Source: Microvirga lupini (GTDB lineage Bacteria; Pseudomonadota; Alphaproteobacteria; Rhizobiales; Beijerinckiaceae). Taken from it: a DNA stretch of 64,000 nt. Of the stretch, positions 6,003 through 38,400 are shown piece by piece (the first letter of the stretch is position 1; each line of letters begins with the position of its first letter). Under the pieces are notes generated by a model that worked only from the letters and a program-made list of their open reading frames with translations, did no database searches and had not been told where the DNA came from. Both the position numbers and the translations under genes were made by a program. Location of the stretch: contig NZ_JACHWB010000003.1 in assembly GCF_014191055.1 (NCBI RefSeq), forward strand, positions 682,066 through 746,065, in the 5' to 3' direction.

Positions 6003-7292
6003 ATGGCCAAGGCACCGGAAGCCAAAGCGGCACCTACTGGGACGAAGCCCTTCTCGCTCTTCGAGTGGATGCTCGCCGGGCGCTACCTGCGCACACGGCG
6101 GCGGGAGGGGTTCGTCTCGGTCATCGCCGGCTTCTCGTTCCTGGGAATCATGCTCGGCGTTGCCACGCTGATTGTGGTGCTCTCGGTCATGAACGGCTTC
6201 CGCAAAGAGCTGCTCGACAAGATCGTCGGCATCAACGGCCATATCTTCGTAGCGCCTCTGGAGAGCCCACTGACAGATTACCCAGAGGTCGCGGCGCGGA
6301 TTGCCGCCGTGCCGGGCGTCCGGCGTGCCATTCCGCTGGTGGAAGGCCAGGCTTTCGGCTCCTCGCAGTATAATGGCAGCGGTGTTCTCGTGCGTGGCAT
6401 CCGCCCTGAGGACCTGCGGAAGATCGAGCATATCTCCGGCAATATCCGCCAGGGCACGCTTGATGATTTCGACGAAGGCGAGGGGGTGGCCATCGGCCGG
6501 CGGCTCGCCGATGCCCTTTCGCTCCAGGCGGGCGATACCTTCACACTGATTACCCCGCGCGGCGCTTCCACGCCCTTCGGCACGGCGCCACGGGTGAAGG
6601 GCTACCCGGTGAAGGCGATCTTCGAGATCGGCATGTCGGAGTTCGACTCCACCTTCGTGTTCATGCCGCTCACAGAGGCTCAGAACTACTTCAACCGCCA
6701 GGGCGACGTGCAATTGATCGAGGTCTATCTCGACAATGCCGACCGGGTGGACGAGGCGCGTGCGGCCATCGACGAGGCAGCCGGCCGGCCGATTCTGATG
6801 ACCGACTGGCGCCAGCGCAATCGAACCTTCTTCGGCGCGCTCGAGGTCGAACGCAACGTGATGTTCCTCATTCTCACGCTTATTGTGCTCGTGGCGGCGC
6901 TCAACATCATCTCCGGCCTCATCATGCTCGTGAAGGACAAGTCGGAGGACATTGCGATCCTGCGTACCATGGGTGCGACGCGCGGTGCCATCATGCGGGT
7001 TTTCCTGATCACCGGAGCCTCCATCGGCATCGTCGGCACGATTGCCGGCTTCGGTCTTGGCCTCCTGCTCGCACTCAATGTCGAGACTATCCGCGATGTC
7101 ATCTCGCGGCTCACGAGCACGAACCTCTTCCCGGCGGAGCTCTACTTCCTGAGCCGCCTGCCGGCCGATGTGAATCCAACCGAGGTGGCGACCATCCTGA
7201 TCATGGCGATGGTGCTCTCATTGCTCGCGACCCTCTACCCGTCCTGGCGGGCCGCGAAGCTCGATCCCGTCGAAGCCCTGCGTTACGGTTGA
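6003..7292 (+). CDS. lolC: Lipoprotein-releasing ABC transporter permease (LolC/LolE family)
   Basis: This is the inner-membrane permease that, with LolD, extracts outer-membrane lipoproteins and hands them to LolA. The 429-aa protein begins with a cytoplasmic tail, then [20 protein letters not shown] and a first membrane helix (about residues 40-65). A large periplasmic domain follows, then three further helices in the C-terminal third, ending in the typical [18 protein letters not shown]. Only one permease gene is present, so the transporter is probably a homodimer of this LolC/E-type subunit, as in many alphaproteobacteria. It overlaps the upstream in-frame extension of lolD, indicating tight coupling. 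Confidence 0.92.
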
Positions 7293-7294
7293 GT

Positions 7295-7990
7295 ATGTCG
7301 CCAGCCCAATCCCAGCCCGCCCTGTACCTGTCGAAAGTCGAGCGTCGCTACCCGCAGGGCGACAGCTTCCTCGAGGTGCTGCGTGGGGCAGACCTTGCAA
7401 TCTGGCCGGGCGAGATCGTAGCGCTCATTGCGCCCTCAGGCACCGGCAAGTCCACCTTGCTTCATCTTGCGGGTCTGCTCGAGAAGCCGGATGGCGGCGA
7501 GGTGTTCGTCGGCTCGAAACAGACAGCCGCCATGAACGACCAGGAGCGCACGCGCATCCGGCGCGAGGAGCTCGGCTTCGTCTACCAGTTCCACCACCTG
7601 CTGCCTGAATTCTCGGCTCTCGAAAACGTCGTGATCCCGCAGCTCATCCGCGGCCTGCCGAAAACGGAGGCTCAGGATCGGGGCAGGCAGCTCCTGACCT
7701 TCCTCGGTTTGGGCAAGCGCTTGGACCACCGCCCCGGCGAACTCTCCGGCGGCGAGCAGCAGCGCGTCGCCATTGCCCGCGCGGTTGCCAATGCGCCCCG
7801 CCTGCTGCTGGCCGATGAGCCGACCGGCAACCTCGATCCTCATACCGCTGACCGGGTGTTTCAGACCCTCGTGGCCATCGTCCGCGCGTCGAAGCTCGCG
7901 GCCCTCATCGCTACCCACAATATGGATCTCGCCGCCCGCATGGACCGGCGCGTGACCATCCGCGATGGGCTGATCGTTCAGCTGCCCTGA
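7295..7990 (+). CDS. lolD: Lipoprotein-releasing ABC transporter ATP-binding protein
   Basis: This is the cytoplasmic ATPase partner of the LolC/E permease. The 231-aa protein has Walker [10 protein letters not shown], the Q-loop in [16 protein letters not shown], the signature [14 protein letters not shown], Walker [14 protein letters not shown] and the switch histidine in ATHNMDL. The ATG at 7295 starts 2 bp after the lolC/E stop. A TTG two codons earlier overlaps that stop and is less likely. It forms an operon with proS and lolC/E. Confidence 0.93.
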
Positions 7991-8058
7991 GGTTTCACTC
8001 TCTCACCGAGACTGCAACAGGCGCCTCCTAGGCGTGCCTGTCTGCGCCTGATTGCGCC

Positions 8059-8073
8059 TTAACCATTCGTTGA
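8059..8073 (+). promoter_or_regulatory. CtrA-like box upstream of the micro-gene
   Basis: TTAACCATTCGTTGA fits the alphaproteobacterial CtrA pattern TTAA-N7-TTAA with one mismatch in the second half (TTGA). The first half has the favoured TTAACCAT form. It lies about 90 bp upstream of the 33-aa gene at 8162. A single match in G+C-rich DNA is suggestive only. Confidence 0.35.
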
Positions 8074-8111
8074 CTCCGTCCCAAAGGCGGGCTCTGCACA
8101 CGCTTTACACA

Positions 8112-8126
8112 GAACATCCAATGAAC
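8112..8126 (+). promoter_or_regulatory. LexA (SOS) box 1 upstream of the micro-gene
   Basis: GAACATCCAATGAAC is an exact GAAC-N7-GAAC direct repeat, the LexA operator type of alphaproteobacteria (GTTC-N7-GTTC on the other strand). The same pattern is found in the lexA promoter of this window at 33147-33161. A possible -35 (TTTACA, 8104-8109) sits just upstream, so the box would overlap the core promoter. Confidence 0.75.
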
Positions 8127-8132
8127 AAGGAT

Positions 8133-8147
8133 GAACATATTGGGAAC
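8133..8147 (+). promoter_or_regulatory. LexA (SOS) box 2 upstream of the micro-gene
   Basis: GAACATATTGGGAAC is a second exact GAAC-N7-GAAC, 6 bp after box 1 and 14 bp before the ATG at 8162. The four GAAC half-sites start at 8112, 8123, 8133 and 8144. That is 10 to 11 bp apart, so they lie on one face of the helix, which would allow side-by-side LexA dimers. Confidence 0.72.
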
Positions 8148-8161
8148 ACGGAGATCAGACC

Positions 8162-8263
8162 ATGCTTCGCTTCATCATCGAGACCACCGCCGAAATCGCT
8201 TCTCTGGCCATGTTCGGCTCCGCCGTGGCAATCTGGGCTCTGGTCCTTTCTCCCATCGCTTGA
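8162..8263 (+). CDS. 33-aa single-pass membrane micropeptide, probably SOS-controlled
   Basis: This is a 33-codon frame with a good ribosome-binding site (GGAGA, 8150-8154, 7 bp before the ATG). The product begins MLRFIIETTAEIASLAMFGS, a short amphipathic start with one Arg and two Glu. It continues into a hydrophobic stretch (about residues 12-33) containing one Trp and ending SPIA, enough for one membrane span. Two LexA-type boxes lie directly upstream. The setting between lolD and dnaE, the size and the SOS boxes recall SidA of Caulobacter crescentus, a 29-aa SOS-induced inner-membrane peptide that blocks division through FtsW. Homology is not established here, and the analogy is inference. 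It is too short for usual gene callers. Confidence 0.65.
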   Translation: MLRFIIETTAEIASLAMFGSAVAIWALVLSPIA

Positions 8264-8382
8264 TACCGGGAATCCACAACAACCCACCGCGATTCACAGG
8301 AACATAGTCCTCGACGTCCCGGGTTAGGATTTCTGGGGGAAGAATCGTGCCACTATGCGTGCCATTGGGTGAGTAGAGTTTC

Positions 8383-11300
8383 ATGGCGCGCATTCTTCAG
8401 GATATCGGCTTCGTTCATCTGCATGTTCACTCCTCGTATTCGCTGCTCGAGGGTGCCCTGAAGGTCGCGCAACTAGCGAAACTTGCCACTGCCGACAAGC
8501 AGCCGGCACTGGCGCTCACCGACACCAACAATCTCTTCGGCGCCCTTGAGTTCTCCGAGAAGATGGCGGGCTCCGGCATCCAGCCGATCGCCGGCGTTCA
8601 GCTCTCGGTGTGTTTTGAGGAGGCGGACCCGGTGGCCCGCGTGGTCCCTCAGCCCGCCGATATCGTGCTGCTGGCCCAGAACGAGGAGGGCTATCGCAAC
8701 CTCATGCGCCTCGTGAGCCAAGCCTATTTCGGCGTGCCGCTCGGCGAGAACCCGCGTGTTGCGGCTCCGATATTGTCGACCCACAGCGAAGGGCTGATTG
8801 CGCTGACGGGCGGCTTCACCGGGCCCCTTGACAGCGCCCTGCGCAATGGCGGGCGCCAAGATCTGGCGCAGGCGCGGCTGAATATCCTGAAGGAAGCCTT
8901 CGGCCATCAGCTCTATGTGGAGATCCAGCGTCATGGACTGGAAGATGGACGCCTGATTGAGGGCGAGCTGCTGACGCTTGCCGACCGCAATGGTCTGCCG
9001 ATCGTTGCCGCCAACGAACCCTTCTTCTCCTCGGCTAAGGATTACGAGGCGCACGATGCGCTGCTCGCCATTGCGGAAGGGCAGATCGTCTCCAACCCGG
9101 ATCGCCGCCGCCTCTCGCCGGAGCACCATTTCAAGACGCGTCAGCAGATGATGGAGCTGTTCGCAGATCTGCCGGATGCGCTGCAGGCGAGCGTCGAGAT
9201 CGCCATGCGCTGCGCGACGCGCGTGAGGACCCGCAAGCCTATCCTGCCGAGTTTCGGCACCGGCCCGGACGCCGCCACTCTCGACGAAGGAGAGGAGTTG
9301 CAGCGCCAGGCTGAGGAAGGTCTCGCCAAGCGCTTAGCCGCGCACGGCCCGGCCCCAGGGCTGACCGAGCAGGATTACCGCGACCGCCTGGCCTTCGAGG
9401 TCGGCATCATCCGCAAGATGCAGTTCCCCGGTTACTTCCTGATCGTGGCGGACTTCATCAAATGGGCGAAGGACCACGACATTCCCGTGGGTCCGGGCCG
9501 TGGTTCCGGTGCGGGTTCGCTCGTGGCCTATGCGCTCACCATCACGGATCTCGATCCTCTGCGGTTCAGCCTTCTCTTCGAACGCTTCCTGAATCCCGAA
9601 CGCGTATCGATGCCCGACTTCGACATCGACTTCTGCGTGGAAGGTCGCGAGCGCGTCATCCAATATGTGCAGCAGCGCTACGGCGAGGAGCAAGTCGCGC
9701 AGATCATCACCTTTGGTACGCTGCTTGCCCGTGGTGTGCTGCGCGACGTGGGTCGTGTGCTCGAGATGCCGTACGGCCAGGTGGACAAGCTCACCAAGCT
9801 CGTGCCGCAGAACCCAGCCAACCCGGTGACGCTCGCGCAGGCCATCGAGGGCGAGCCGAAGCTGCAGGCTGCCATCGAGGAGGAGCCTGTCGTCAAGCGC
9901 TTGCTCGAAATTGCGCAGAAGCTCGAAGGCTTGCACCGTCACGCCTCGACCCACGCGGCCGGCGTGGTGATCGGCGACCGCCCCTTGCAGGAACTGGTGC
10001 CGCTCTATCGAGACCCGAAGACCGGGATGCGGGTGACCCAGTTCAACATGAAATGGGTCGAGCAGGCAGGCCTCGTGAAGTTCGACTTCCTGGGGCTGAA
10101 GACGCTTACGGTTCTGCGCACCGCCGTGGACCTGATCCGGCTGAAAGGCATTGAGGTCGATCTATCGTCCCTGCCGCTCGACGACCGCAAGACCTACGAG
10201 ATGCTCCGGCGCGGTGAGACGGTCGGCGTGTTCCAGGTGGAATCGGCGGGCATGCGCAAAGCCCTCGTCGAGATGGAGACCGACCGCTTCGAGGACATCA
10301 TCGCCCTCGTGGCACTCTACCGTCCGGGTCCTATGGCGAACATCCCGGTCTATTGCGCCCGCAAATTGGGCAAGGACGAGCACAACAAGAAGGACTGGTA
10401 CCCTCACGACAAGCTCGAGCCGATCCTGCGCGAGACCTTCGGCATCATCGTCTACCAGGAGCAGGTGATGGAGGTAGCGAAAGTCCTCTCCGGCTACTCG
10501 CTCGGCGACGCGGACCTTCTGCGCCGCGCCATGGGCAAGAAGATCAAGGCTGAGATGGATGCGCAGCGCGAGCGCTTCGTCTCGGGCGCGAAGGAGGGCG
10601 GTCTCGACAAGGCGAAGGCCAACGAAATCTTCGACCTGCTCGCGAAGTTCGCCGATTACGGCTTCAACAAGAGCCACGCGGCCGCTTACGCGCTCGTCGC
10701 GTTCCAGACCGCCTATCTGAAGGCCAACTACCCGGTCGAGTTCCTGGCCGCGTCCATGACGCTCGATCTCGACAACACCGACAAGCTGTCGGAATTCCGC
10801 CGCGAGGCGCAGCGGCTCGGTTTCAAGGTCATCCCGCCTTCCATCAACCGGTCCGGCGTGGTGTTCGATGTGCAATACGATGCGGAGGGCCAGGGGCAGA
10901 TTCTCTATGCGCTGGCCGCCGTGAAAGGCGTGGGCCGGCAGGCCATCGAGAGCGTTGTCGAAGCTCGCGGGGACAAGCCCTTCAAGGATCTCGCCGACTT
11001 CGCTCGGCGCATCAATCCGCGCATGCTCAACAAGCGCACGCTGGAGAACCTGATCGCTGCCGGGGCCTTCGATGAACTGGAGCCGGACCGGGCCAAGGCC
11101 TGTGCCTCCATCGACGCCATGATGAGCCTCGCCCAGCAATCCCACGAAGCCGCCAATGGCGGCATGATGGACATGTTCGGAGGCGTTGCTTCGGCCGATG
11201 TTCAACTGCGGATCGGCCCTTACGATCCCTGGCCGTCGGCCGAGCGGCTGCAGCGGGAATATGACGCGGTCGGCTTCTTCCTTTCAGGCCATCCGCTCGA

Positions 11301-11856
11301 CGAATACGGCGACCTTCTCAAGAAGCTTCGGGTGCAGACCTGGGTCGAATTCTGCCGCTCGGTGAAAGCGGGCAATTCCGTGGGCCGGGTTGCCGCCACC
11401 GTGCTCGACCGGCAGGAGCGCAGGACCAAGACCGGCAACAAGATGGGCATTCTCATGCTCTCGGATCAGACCGGGCAGTTCGAGGCCATTATCTTCTCGG
11501 AGGGCCTCATGCGTTTCCGAGAAGTGCTCGAGCCCGGCGCCGCCGTCGTCCTGATGCTCCAGGCCGGGATGGAAGGCGAGGAGGTGAGGGCGCGAATCGG
11601 CATCGCCGAGCCTCTCGAAGAGGCTCTCGCCAAGCACCAGAAGGGCATGCGGATCTTCCTGAGAGACGAGCGTCCCATCTCAAGTGTGCAGGAGCGTCTG
11701 AAGGCGAGAGGCGAGGGTGAGGTATCCCTGGTCCTGATTCTCGACGATGGCGACCGCGAGGTTGAGGTCAAGCTTCCCGGCAAGTACATGGCCTCGCCCC
11801 AGATTGCCGGCGCTCTCCGGGCGGTGCCGGGGGTCGTGGACGTGCATATGAATTGA
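8383..11856 (+). CDS. dnaE: DNA polymerase III subunit alpha
   Basis: This is the catalytic subunit of the replicative polymerase. The 1157-aa protein starts with a PHP domain (FVHLHVHSSYSLLEGALKV). The palm domain contains PDFDIDFC with catalytic aspartates near residue 410, and GPGRGSGAGSLVAYAL lies just before it. Next come the helix-hairpin-helix and OB-fold regions (KTGNKMGILMLSDQTGQFEAIIF). Length and the presence of a full C-terminus point to the main DnaE1 and not the error-prone DnaE2/ImuC. It lies 119 bp after the micro-gene. Whether the SOS boxes also influence dnaE by read-through cannot be told from sequence. Confidence 0.96.
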   Translation: MARILQDIGFVHLHVHSSYSLLEGALKVAQLAKLATADKQPALALTDTNNLFGALEFSEKMAGSGIQPIAGVQLSVCFEEADPVARVVPQPADIVLLAQNEEGYRNLMRLVSQAYFGVPLGENPRVAAPILSTHSEGLIALTGGFTGPLDSALRNGGRQDLAQARLNILKEAFGHQLYVEIQRHGLEDGRLIEGELLTLADRNGLPIVAANEPFFSSAKDYEAHDALLAIAEGQIVSNPDRRRLSPEHHFKTRQQMMELFADLPDALQASVEIAMRCATRVRTRKPILPSFGTGPDAATLDEGEELQRQAEEGLAKRLAAHGPAPGLTEQDYRDRLAFEVGIIRKMQFPGYFLIVADFIKWAKDHDIPVGPGRGSGAGSLVAYALTITDLDPLRFSLLFERFLNPERVSMPDFDIDFCVEGRERVIQYVQQRYGEEQVAQIITFGTLLARGVLRDVGRVLEMPYGQVDKLTKLVPQNPANPVTLAQAIEGEPKLQAAIEEEPVVKRLLEIAQKLEGLHRHASTHAAGVVIGDRPLQELVPLYRDPKTGMRVTQFNMKWVEQAGLVKFDFLGLKTLTVLRTAVDLIRLKGIEVDLSSLPLDDRKTYEMLRRGETVGVFQVESAGMRKALVEMETDRFEDIIALVALYRPGPMANIPVYCARKLGKDEHNKKDWYPHDKLEPILRETFGIIVYQEQVMEVAKVLSGYSLGDADLLRRAMGKKIKAEMDAQRERFVSGAKEGGLDKAKANEIFDLLAKFADYGFNKSHAAAYALVAFQTAYLKANYPVEFLAASMTLDLDNTDKLSEFRREAQRLGFKVIPPSINRSGVVFDVQYDAEGQGQILYALAAVKGVGRQAIESVVEARGDKPFKDLADFARRINPRMLNKRTLENLIAAGAFDELEPDRAKACASIDAMMSLAQQSHEAANGGMMDMFGGVASADVQLRIGPYDPWPSAERLQREYDAVGFFLSGHPLDEYGDLLKKLRVQTWVEFCRSVKAGNSVGRVAATVLDRQERRTKTGNKMGILMLSDQTGQFEAIIFSEGLMRFREVLEPGAAVVLMLQAGMEGEEVRARIGIAEPLEEALAKHQKGMRIFLRDERPISSVQERLKARGEGEVSLVLILDDGDREVEVKLPGKYMASPQIAGALRAVPGVVDVHMN

Positions 11857-11912
11857 GGCAGTGCGGAGGTCCTCACTACCAGAGAGGGCTACGCAATGTT
11901 CCCACTTTGTTC

Positions 11913-11941
11913 TTGACAATTCTCCTAAGCTGGGCTATATC
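11913..11941 (+). promoter_or_regulatory. Sigma70-type promoter without an obvious gene behind it
   Basis: TTGACA (11913-11918) and TATATC (11936-11941) are separated by exactly 17 bp. The -35 is a perfect consensus match and the -10 is good. Transcription would begin near 11948. No ORF with a ribosome-binding site follows, so it could make a small RNA or a long rpsB leader. Confidence 0.6.
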
Positions 11942-12228
11942 ATGGTTCATCCTCGTCCACAGAGGGGCGCGCTCGCGAGGCGTCGCAGATGCGGGACGAG
12001 GCGCGGTCTCGCCGCAGGTCTCGCACGCCTGTGATCGCGGGTGGCCGATCCTGGCTCAGATCCAGGTCCGCTGAAACAAACCGCGCGTGACGAGCAGGTC
12101 TGGCTCTTCGCTTCTCACCACACCCATCGAGCCGGGCTGCCCAGCACGCCTCCCTCGACTGACCTGACGGCTCGCAGCCCACCCGCTGCGGGCCCGAAGG
12201 CGCTGGTTGTTTGACAGGCCATCACACA

Positions 12229-33146: not shown

Positions 33147-33161
33147 GTTCTCGCTGTGTTC
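33147..33161 (-). promoter_or_regulatory. LexA box in the lexA promoter
   Basis: On the lexA strand the sequence is GAACACAGCGAGAAC, an exact GAAC-N7-GAAC, 60 bp upstream of the start codon. It falls in the 17-bp spacer between a possible -35 (TTGCGG) and -10 (TAACTT), the position expected for repression. Confidence 0.85.
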
Positions 33162-35416: not shown

Positions 35417-38400
35417 ATGGCGACCCGCTTCGATGGCGAAATCACCTTCAGCTCAAACAATGCGCATGGCACGCAGCCGAAGGTAAAGGCCTTGCCGAAC
35501 GGCGGCTACGTGGTGGTTTATCAGAGTGATTTCGAAGGGCAGGACGTCTGGTTCGAGTTTCGTGACGCTCTGGGGCGCGTCACGAACAATTCCCGCACTT
35601 TCGCCCAGTCCGGTGATCAAGTCGATCACGACGTCGCCGTCCTGACGAATGGGGATGTCGTCATCTTGTGGCGGGATACGGCTTTTAACGACATCAAGGG
35701 GCGTCGCTTCGCGCCCGACGGCGCGGTAAAGTCCGACGAGTTCTTTGTGCGCGACGTCGATGAAACTCAGCTGTCCCCATCCGTCATAGCGCTTGCCGAC
35801 GGAGGATTTGCGACTTTGATGGCGTCGAAGCCGCCGGAGCAAATGAGTGCCTATGCGGTCAATGTCGGCCTTTTTAATGTGGACGGAACCCTGCGCTCCA
35901 ACTTGCTGATACCTGGTGGGATCAACCCCCAGACTGGCCCTGTTCCTATGAGAGATCCGCAGATAGTGCAGCGTCCGAATGGGCAGCTCACTGTAAGCTG
36001 GGAATATGGCGGAGATACGCGCTTCCGAAGCTATCTTCCCGACGGAAGGGCTGCTTCGGCTGAAGAAATTTTGGCCGGTGGCGCTGGGGGCCAAGGTTCA
36101 ACCGCGCTGGCATCTCTTTCGAATGGGAATCTCGTTGCTGCTTTCATCGATACGGGTGCTGTGCCCGGGCAGTCGCTTCTTCGGGGTCGTATAATTGGGT
36201 CATCGACCAATCTCGACTTCAAGATGACCGATAGTGGGGAGTATGCCGAGCCTTCGGTCGCTGTTCTAACCGATGGACGCTTTGTTGTCGCTGTCATGCA
36301 TCGCGTTACCGCGACCGACAAATGGAGCATCCGTGCTCAGGTATTCGACGCGAATGGAACGCCGAGCGCGGGCGAGGCGGAGTTCGTCGTCAACGCCCCC
36401 TCCGCTGGATCGGCGGTTTCGCCGAGTATTAGCGTTCTTCGGGACGGGCGCTTCATGGTCGCGTGGTCCGAGGAGGGTGTGGGTGAGACCCACATCGCTA
36501 AAGGGCAGGTCTTCGACGCGCGCGCATCCGGCGTCGTGGTCAACGGAACATCCGGCAACGATATCTATGTCGCATCGTCCTATGGTGGCGACGAGCTGTA
36601 TGGCAACGGCGGCGATGACCTTCTGATCGATCTAGAAAGCCGCGGGATTTCCACCCAAGCGGGCGACAAATATGACGGCGGTGCGAACATCGACACTGTC
36701 AGCTATGAACGGGTGGGCGCCGGCGTCACGGCAAGCTTAGCGGATTTCGGTGCCCGCAACTCTGGAGCCGCTTTCGGAGATTCCTATTACAATGTCGAGA
36801 ATCTCAAAGGCAGCGCCTATGGCGACGAGCTGCACGGGGATGGTAAGTCTAACACGCTTACGGGCGGGCAGGGTGATGACGTGCTCTATGGGGGAGCAGG
36901 CTCCGTAGGAGATCGGTTTGTAGGCGGGGCCGGAATCGATACAGTCACCTTTGCATATTCCACTGCCGGTGTAGGGGTCGCGATCAATCTCGACGACCCA
37001 TCGGAAAACGCCGGGGAGGCCTCCGGCGATGTCTATGAGAGCATCGAGATCTTTGTCGGGAGTGACTGGGACGATCATTTCGTTGCCGGCCTTGATAGTA
37101 CATTCCACGGCGGAAAGGGGAATGATGTCGCCATCGGTAGTCATCTCAACGACAAGTTTTACGGCGAGAGCGGAAACGATGATCTGAGGGGCTATTTCGG
37201 GAATGACACCCTCGAGGGCGGTTTAGGATCTGATATCCTTTATGGCGAGGACGGAGACGATACCCTTGATGGAGGTGGTGAGAACGACATTCTCCGTGGC
37301 GGCGCCGGTACTGACAGCCTCGTCGGCGGAACTGGCAATGACATTCTAGTCGGCGGATTGGGCGCGGACAGGCTGATCGGCGGAGACGGCACTCAGGACA
37401 TGGCACTCTACGAGGGTGCGCAAGGTGTCATCGCCAACATGACGGACCGCTCCAAAAATACGGGTGAGGCCGCGGGCGATACCTATGATGGTATCGAGAA
37501 CCTCGCCGGAACTGCCTTCAACGACATTCTGACAGGTGCTACGGGTTTCAATGGGCTCTTCGGTCAGGCCGGTAACGACACGCTTGAAGGCATGGACGGC
37601 GATGACGATCTGATCGGCGGGGCCGGCGCGGACAAGCTCGACGGCGGGTCCGGCAACGATTGGGCGATCTATCGTGACGCGAAGGCGGATGCGAACGGCA
37701 ACGGCGTTCGCATCAACCTCAAGACGAACCAGCATGCCGGTGACGAGGCGCTGGGCGACGAGCTGATCAGCATCGAGAATGTGCGCGGATCCGCGCACAG
37801 GGATATTCTCATCGGAAACGCGGCGGCGAACCGACTTGAAGGAGGTAACGGCGACGATTGGCTCTATGGCGGTGCCGGTACTGCTGGCGACACGCTTGTC
37901 GGCGGTGGGCAGTGGAACTATGCCACCTATGAGTACTCTACCGATACCAACGGCATCGTGCTCGATCTCCTCAATCGCGCCAACGATGCCGGTGAAGCCA
38001 AAGGCGACGTGTTCATAGAGATCACCGCATATGGCGGCACGAACTTTTCCGACCGTATTGTCGGATTGAACAGCTATAACGAGTTTAACGGAAACGGTGG
38101 CAATGACACTCTGATTGGTGGTACCAGTGGCGACTACCTGAATGGCGGTGATCACGCTGACAAGCTCATCGGCGGCGCGGGCGCAGATGTTCTCGTCGGT
38201 GGCGACGGGAATGACTCAGCGTCGTATGAGAATGCCTCGGCAGGCGTGAAGGCTTACCTCGATCCGACCAAAGGGACGAACACGGGCGATGCCGCAGGCG
38301 ATCAATATCATTCCATCGAGAATTTGATTGGCTCTGCACACGCTGACCAGCTCTGGGGTAACGGAGCGGGCAACGTCTTGGAGGGGCGAGACAACAACGA

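Follow-up and report, generated by a model that had tools for sequence, protein, structure and literature searches.

A candidate SidA orthologue behind tandem LexA boxes between lolD and dnaE of Microvirga lupini

The gap between lolD and dnaE in the 64,000-nucleotide stretch of Microvirga lupini DNA analysed here (the window) carries two LexA boxes, and it raises the question of which gene they serve: the replicative polymerase gene or a 33-codon reading frame that lies just ahead of it. A first-pass annotation, made from the letters of the window, had favoured the reading frame and suggested that it could be the counterpart of Caulobacter SidA or an SOS micropeptide of another kind. The literature describes SidA as an inner-membrane protein of 29 aa, controlled by LexA and acting on FtsW (PMC4211646). 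Its start codon was corrected via ribosome profiling (PMC4117421), and its gene carries the tag CCNA_02004 (PMC10769358).

The layout held up on re-examination (Table 1). The 33-codon frame and its ribosome-binding site are in place between lolD and dnaE; the two GAAC-N7-GAAC boxes are exact, are separated by 6 bp and end 14 bp ahead of the ATG; and the half-site spacing of 10-11 bp is as described, with starts at 8112, 8123, 8133, and 8144, or steps of 11, 10, and 11 bp. The stop codon lies 119 nt from the dnaE start. A terminator scan found no terminator-like site between the frame and dnaE (shuffles gave a mean of 0.3), and an Rfam scan of 7950-8450 returned no match.

Table 1. Features of the lolD–dnaE region, in window positions
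Feature	Position	Strand	Basis and remarks
lolC/E-type permease	6003-7292		precedes lolD; NCBIfam TIGR02212, above cut-off
lolD, ATP-binding protein of lipoprotein-releasing ABC transporter	7289-7990	+	NCBIfam TIGR02211, E 6e-75, score under the model's curated cut-off
TTAA-N7-TTGA TTAACCATTCGTTGA	8059-8073	+	CtrA-site look-alike, by motif
TTTACA, proposed -35 element	8104-8109	+	conserved across the genus
LexA box 1 GAACATCCAATGAAC	8112-8126	+	exact GAAC-N7-GAAC; fills the 17-bp spacer of the proposed -35/-10
AAGGAT, proposed -10 element	8127-8132	+	by spacing and conservation
LexA box 2 GAACATATTGGGAAC	8133-8147	+	exact GAAC-N7-GAAC; 21 bp (two helical turns) from box 1
GGAG ribosome-binding site	8150-8153	+	read from sequence
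sidA-like ORF, 33 aa MLRFIIETTAEIASLAMFGSAVAIWALVLSPIA	8162-8263	+	conservation, profile homology, one predicted helix
dnaE, replicative DNA polymerase III alpha subunit	8383-11856	+	NCBIfam NF004226, above cut-off

A conserved peptide behind a proposed LexA-box promoter

The peptide is present in 35 of the 36 other genomes of the genus; one genome (G026) gave no match. Across the 36 genus sequences, the window's included, every frame is 33 codons long and dN/dS is 0.20, and the third codon position is the most variable (19, 17, and 31 of 33 columns vary at positions 1, 2, and 3). The ORF is under protein-level selection. A single-sequence structure prediction gave one helix over residues 2-29 with a mean pLDDT of 94, which together with hydropathy bears out the single hydrophobic span first noted. 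Ten peptides were compared with the family databases, this one among them: Pfam matched none, and NCBIfam returned just two chance-level matches. The window peptide had no match in the PDB, nor in plasmids by tblastn, for which so short a query is insensitive. Second copies of the peptide, damaged or shortened, lie elsewhere in two genus genomes (L241 in G027 and L242 in G007), with no exact boxes nearby.

The first-pass annotation had named the lexA promoter as the only other place in the window with such a box. The box there is real (33147-33161), but it is not the only one: an exact box, GAACCTCGCCGGAAC, lies on the plus strand at 37498-37512, and another, GAACAAAGTGGGAAC, on the minus strand at 11898-11912. 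The window thus holds five exact GAAC-N7-GAAC matches, compared with a shuffle mean of 1.98, and 5 of 100 shuffles reach five; the whole genome holds 159, compared with 116 for the reversed pattern. Since single boxes are common in both window and genome, the case against chance rests on conservation. The four-half-site array is complete in 32 of the 36 genus sequences, and the other four keep three half-sites. We considered the tandem array as a mark of the family and rejected it, as the exact pattern occurs in only 5 of 385 class genomes, the window's genome among them. No dnaE adjoins the array in L040 or L043, and in G067 and G358 the array and the listed dnaE match are on different contigs. 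At L043 (G304, from another family of the class), the array is followed by an unrelated 70-aa ORF, which has a single hydrophobic span and may encode a further SOS membrane peptide.

The box at 11898-11912 lies between dnaE and rpsB and is part of a dispersed repeat (11898-12210), in which GTTC-N7-GTTC abuts TTGAC(A)-like and TATA-like hexamers and a conserved GC-rich stretch follows. A 112-nt copy finds matches in 40 of 48 genus genomes and at least 18 in its own genome. We compared 19 stretches of that genome: a copy is present in 17, each with both half-sites intact; ten of these were reached via the box itself, and the other seven, reached by similarity alone, all keep the box. The repeat is present in the dnaE–rpsB gap of 4 of 20 other genus genomes. 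Rfam gave just a chance-level match to it, plasmids and phages gave none, and the fold of five copies found no covariation support. The repeat may perhaps be a family of LexA-controlled promoters or small RNAs.

Ahead of the sidA-like ORF, TTTACA stands 56-59 nt from the start codon in 35 of the 36 genus sequences. Most of these have a -10-like A/T-rich hexamer 17 bp past it (AAATAT, AAAGAT, AATGAT, AATAAT, and others), and two have GAACAT. A generic sigma-70 promoter scan reported none at the locus. With box 1 in the spacer and box 2 just past the hexamer, the putative promoter has the arrangement expected for repression. Further upstream, the TTAA-N7-TTGA motif resembles what we take to be the CtrA-site consensus. 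Of 36 genus sequences, 29 have TTAA-N7-TT(G/A)A in the 170 nt ahead of the ORF, and none of 252 control windows downstream, mostly dnaE coding DNA, has it. Across the order, it lies near the LexA box in just 3 of 43 loci.

Recurrence of box and peptide before dnaE

We surveyed the window's order (taken as Hyphomicrobiales) and the rest of the class with dnaE as the anchor, so that the sampling was independent of the peptide. In the order, dnaE was found in 147 of 150 genomes, and we examined 90 regions, namely the 30 best matches and 60 from mainly new genera; in the class, dnaE was found in 273 of 289 genomes and 85 further regions were examined. The name Caulobacteraceae was assigned by inference. 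Parvibaculum is placed under Hyphomicrobiales by NCBI and outside the window's order by the genome collection used here.

A LexA box on the same strand within 600 nt upstream of dnaE was present in 47 of 90 order genomes (shuffles: mean 1.1, maximum 4), in 21 of 29 Caulobacteraceae (shuffle mean 0.4), and in 8 of 85 other class genomes (shuffle mean 0.6). Same-strand boxes with other spacings occurred in 1-3 of 90 order genomes and 0-1 of 29 Caulobacteraceae, or 0-4 loci per group overall, and opposite-strand boxes in 10 of 90, 0 of 29, and 2 of 85 (order, Caulobacteraceae, and other class genomes). Among 33 named records, nine have the box before dnaE, including Parvibaculum and Lichenifustis flavocetrariae. 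The box is followed by a small hydrophobic ORF, starting within 130 nt of it, at 44 of the 47 order loci, compared with a mean of 7.65 and a maximum of 12 in shuffled downstream DNA, and at all 8 other class loci, all 21 Caulobacteraceae loci, and all 9 named records. Boxes and peptide, which the first-pass annotation had proposed to look for in relatives, are both conserved in the genus and across the order.

Taking as evidence of the gene either a box with a peptide or a match to a profile built without the family concerned, we find it, at a strict threshold, in 50 of the 90 genomes, 42 of the 76 genera, and 26 of the 47 families of the order; the next decoy threshold gives 51 genomes and 43 genera. 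The remaining 21 sampled families have neither box nor peptide within 600 nt upstream of dnaE, a figure to be read as an upper bound on absence because a weak match in G055 sits just past 600 nt. Neither is found before dnaE in the sister genus whose dnaE is nearest to the window's (G343, 73%); about 400 nt upstream of its dnaE (L046/L252) lies ABC-transporter-like sequence, read by eye.

The promoter-like elements recur as well. TT(G/T)AC, -35-like, directly precedes the box at 30 of 43 order loci, compared with 0-6 of 43 at eight shifted positions. A further box, with no more than one mismatch, is found within 45 bp at 15 of 43 order loci, where shuffled flanks would give 6.1, and at all 21 Caulobacteraceae loci, where they would give 3.8. 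Because about 97% of Caulobacter SOS promoters are reported to have a single box (PMC12700426), double LexA control may be a mark of the sidA-like gene.

Relation to Caulobacter SidA

We chose Caulobacter-like genomes by their match to C. crescentus GapR, taken from a PDB alignment; four, all from one genus, matched at 100% over 84 residues. Immediately ahead of dnaE they have an ORF of 29 aa, for example at L298, behind GAACATCTTGTGAAC and one-mismatch boxes, so that a LexA-box promoter, with boxes predicted from sequence, directly precedes the ORF both there and in the window. In several of them, an additional ATG lies further upstream in the same open frame. The place of the ORF agrees with sidA and dnaE being neighbours in C. 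crescentus, as we take them to be in the named strain. The SidA name for the 29-aa ORF rests on genus, length, place, and box. The C. crescentus dnaE is given as CC1926 (PMC1839093).

Direct comparison does not connect the two ends. A search of the window's genome with the 29-aa Caulobacter-like peptide, up to an E of 10, gave no match. A profile of Caulobacteraceae and Parvibaculum-type peptides gave the window peptide 1.4 bits, below the best decoy at 4.4, and just 14 of the 43 order peptides outscored all controls with it. The profile of order peptides, on the other hand, was set against 1,050 shuffles and 275 decoys, and 20 of 21 Caulobacteraceae peptides outscored them all, as did 13 of 17 peptides from other class genomes or named records; one Caulobacteraceae peptide, L317, was a low scorer at 2.9. 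Built without the window's family, the profile gave the window peptide 15.0 bits and the best control 9.2; two window-family peptides (L052 and L053) scored 5.6 and 7.7, below the best decoy of 9.2. With leave-one-family-out profiles, all 43 box peptides beat every one of 66 minus-strand decoys bar one at 21.4 bits, and that lone decoy is a real inverted copy (L113) with its own inverted boxes. The profile set left out L104 as a poor ORF, and at eight loci we chose the ORF by hand, taking the family-like one there (L061, L074, L159, L273, L305, L311, L314, and L315), of which L305, L311, L314, and L315 belong to the 21 Caulobacteraceae test peptides.

As direct comparisons fail and the order profile succeeds, the homology is shown through intermediates, by which the orthology of the window ORF with SidA appears well supported. 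In the family alignment, the window peptide shares with SidA R3, an acidic residue near the N-terminus, and the S and F columns, as well as the place directly upstream of dnaE, the LexA box, a length of about 30 aa, and one hydrophobic span. It differs in being 33 rather than 29 aa long, in having the acidic residue one column off, in E11 where alanine is usual, and in W25, and its two exact boxes 21 bp apart contrast with the one exact box and adjacent one-mismatch boxes of most Caulobacter-like genomes. Place, boxes, size, predicted helix, and profile homology through order genomes together support the SidA counterpart first suggested.

Related peptides also occur away from dnaE. Two genus genomes hold them, L243 with a GAAC-N7-GAAC box 168 nt ahead of the peptide and L245 with one at 175 nt. 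At L243, the adjoining repressor gene matches the phage repressor family phrog_4 (E 3e-14; Peptidase_S24 below cut-off), and the one at L245 looks similar by eye, with a helix-turn-helix match below cut-off. Another related peptide is on an IMG/VR contig (L322) that also has integrase, CI-like, and CII-like genes; the peptide's box lies some 168 nt ahead of it. Judged by these neighbours, SidA-like peptides sit in prophage-like or phage control regions. A tblastn search of deposited phages with the L243 peptide found no match, the short query being insensitive.

We weighed three other accounts of the locus. Coincidence of chance boxes with a chance hydrophobic ORF could draw on the frequency of single boxes in the genome (159 matches against 116) and on the hydrophobic ORF still found at about 8 of 47 loci after shuffling; with boxes and peptide both conserved in genus and order, it is scarcely credible. 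An account that assigns the boxes to dnaE and takes the ORF for an untranslated or mere leader stretch is more serious: C. crescentus dnaE is listed among genes reported to be SOS regulated in a comparative study (PMC3323433), and the terminator scan found none before dnaE. That account fits poorly with the fixed length and dN/dS of the 36 genus sequences and with a peptide kept over many families. At L113, moreover, the sidA-like ORF and its own two boxes, 21 bp apart, are inverted together relative to dnaE and so lie off its strand, and the copies in prophage or phage regions likewise speak against it. We regard it as very unlikely.

The peptide could instead be an SOS-induced single-helix membrane peptide of the TisB/DinQ kind, which would depolarise or slow the membrane; the shared place would then be old and the function different. 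It is small, hydrophobic, and LexA-boxed, as described for DinQ (PMC3567139), and when compared directly with the Caulobacter-like peptide it shows no significant similarity. Toxins of this kind have an antisense RNA that controls their mRNA; the Rfam scan of 7950-8450 came back empty. The position, box type, and profile homology shared with the Caulobacteraceae peptides, and the presence of the gene at the dnaE locus in more than half of the sampled order families, make this reading unlikely. We consider it likely that the ORF is the orthologue of Caulobacter sidA, that LexA cleavage frees its expression, and that it blocks FtsW-dependent septum synthesis.

As a sidA orthologue, the gene would be held silent by two LexA dimers on one face of the DNA, over the promoter spacer and the start region. 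DNA damage would drive LexA self-cleavage through RecA and release the promoter, and the peptide would enter the inner membrane and keep the FtsW/FtsI/FtsN septum-synthesis complex inactive, so that division waits for repair; an inactive complex is the mode proposed for SidA (PMC4211646). By orthology, the window peptide would block division. As the scan placed no terminator in front of dnaE, expression of dnaE could be raised from this transcript as well. The box earlier credited to dnaE probably serves the micropeptide gene first, with dnaE perhaps co-transcribed.

Other division inhibitors resemble the peptide in function more than in build. SulA of E. coli, a soluble protein far larger than the window peptide, is likewise an SOS-induced division inhibitor. 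Its target is FtsZ (PMC4211646). Caulobacter DidA is a small, single-helix, damage-induced inhibitor, but it has 71 aa, is SOS-independent, and binds FtsN (PMC4211646). YneA of Bacillus, SosA of Staphylococcus, and ChiZ of Mycobacterium are also damage-induced membrane division inhibitors; YneA is reported to bind FtsW, and ChiZ, SosA, and SidA were modelled on FtsW with less than high confidence (PMC13396833). An outer domain such as LysM, found in YneA and ChiZ, is absent from the window peptide, with its 33 aa, helix over residues 2-29, and lack of a Pfam match, and Pfam comparison found no sequence relation to YneA, SosA, or ChiZ.

Our literature search found no description of a SidA-like gene in the window's order and no account of how this order delays division after DNA damage. 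The window ORF is likely a SidA in this order. Such a gene is easily overlooked because Pfam and NCBIfam have no model that matches the ten peptides tried beyond chance level. More broadly, it seems to us probable that SidA is an old SOS division inhibitor of much of Alphaproteobacteria (Hyphomicrobiales, Caulobacteraceae, Parvibaculum, and others), overlooked between lolD and dnaE; that the LexA box credited to dnaE is its promoter; and that temperate phages took copies into their early control regions, which would halt division of the host upon induction. The findings suggest that an SOS box ascribed to the gene of the replicative polymerase is that of a micropeptide, and with candidate inhibitor genes at one fixed place, the control of division after damage is open to test in laboratory strains.
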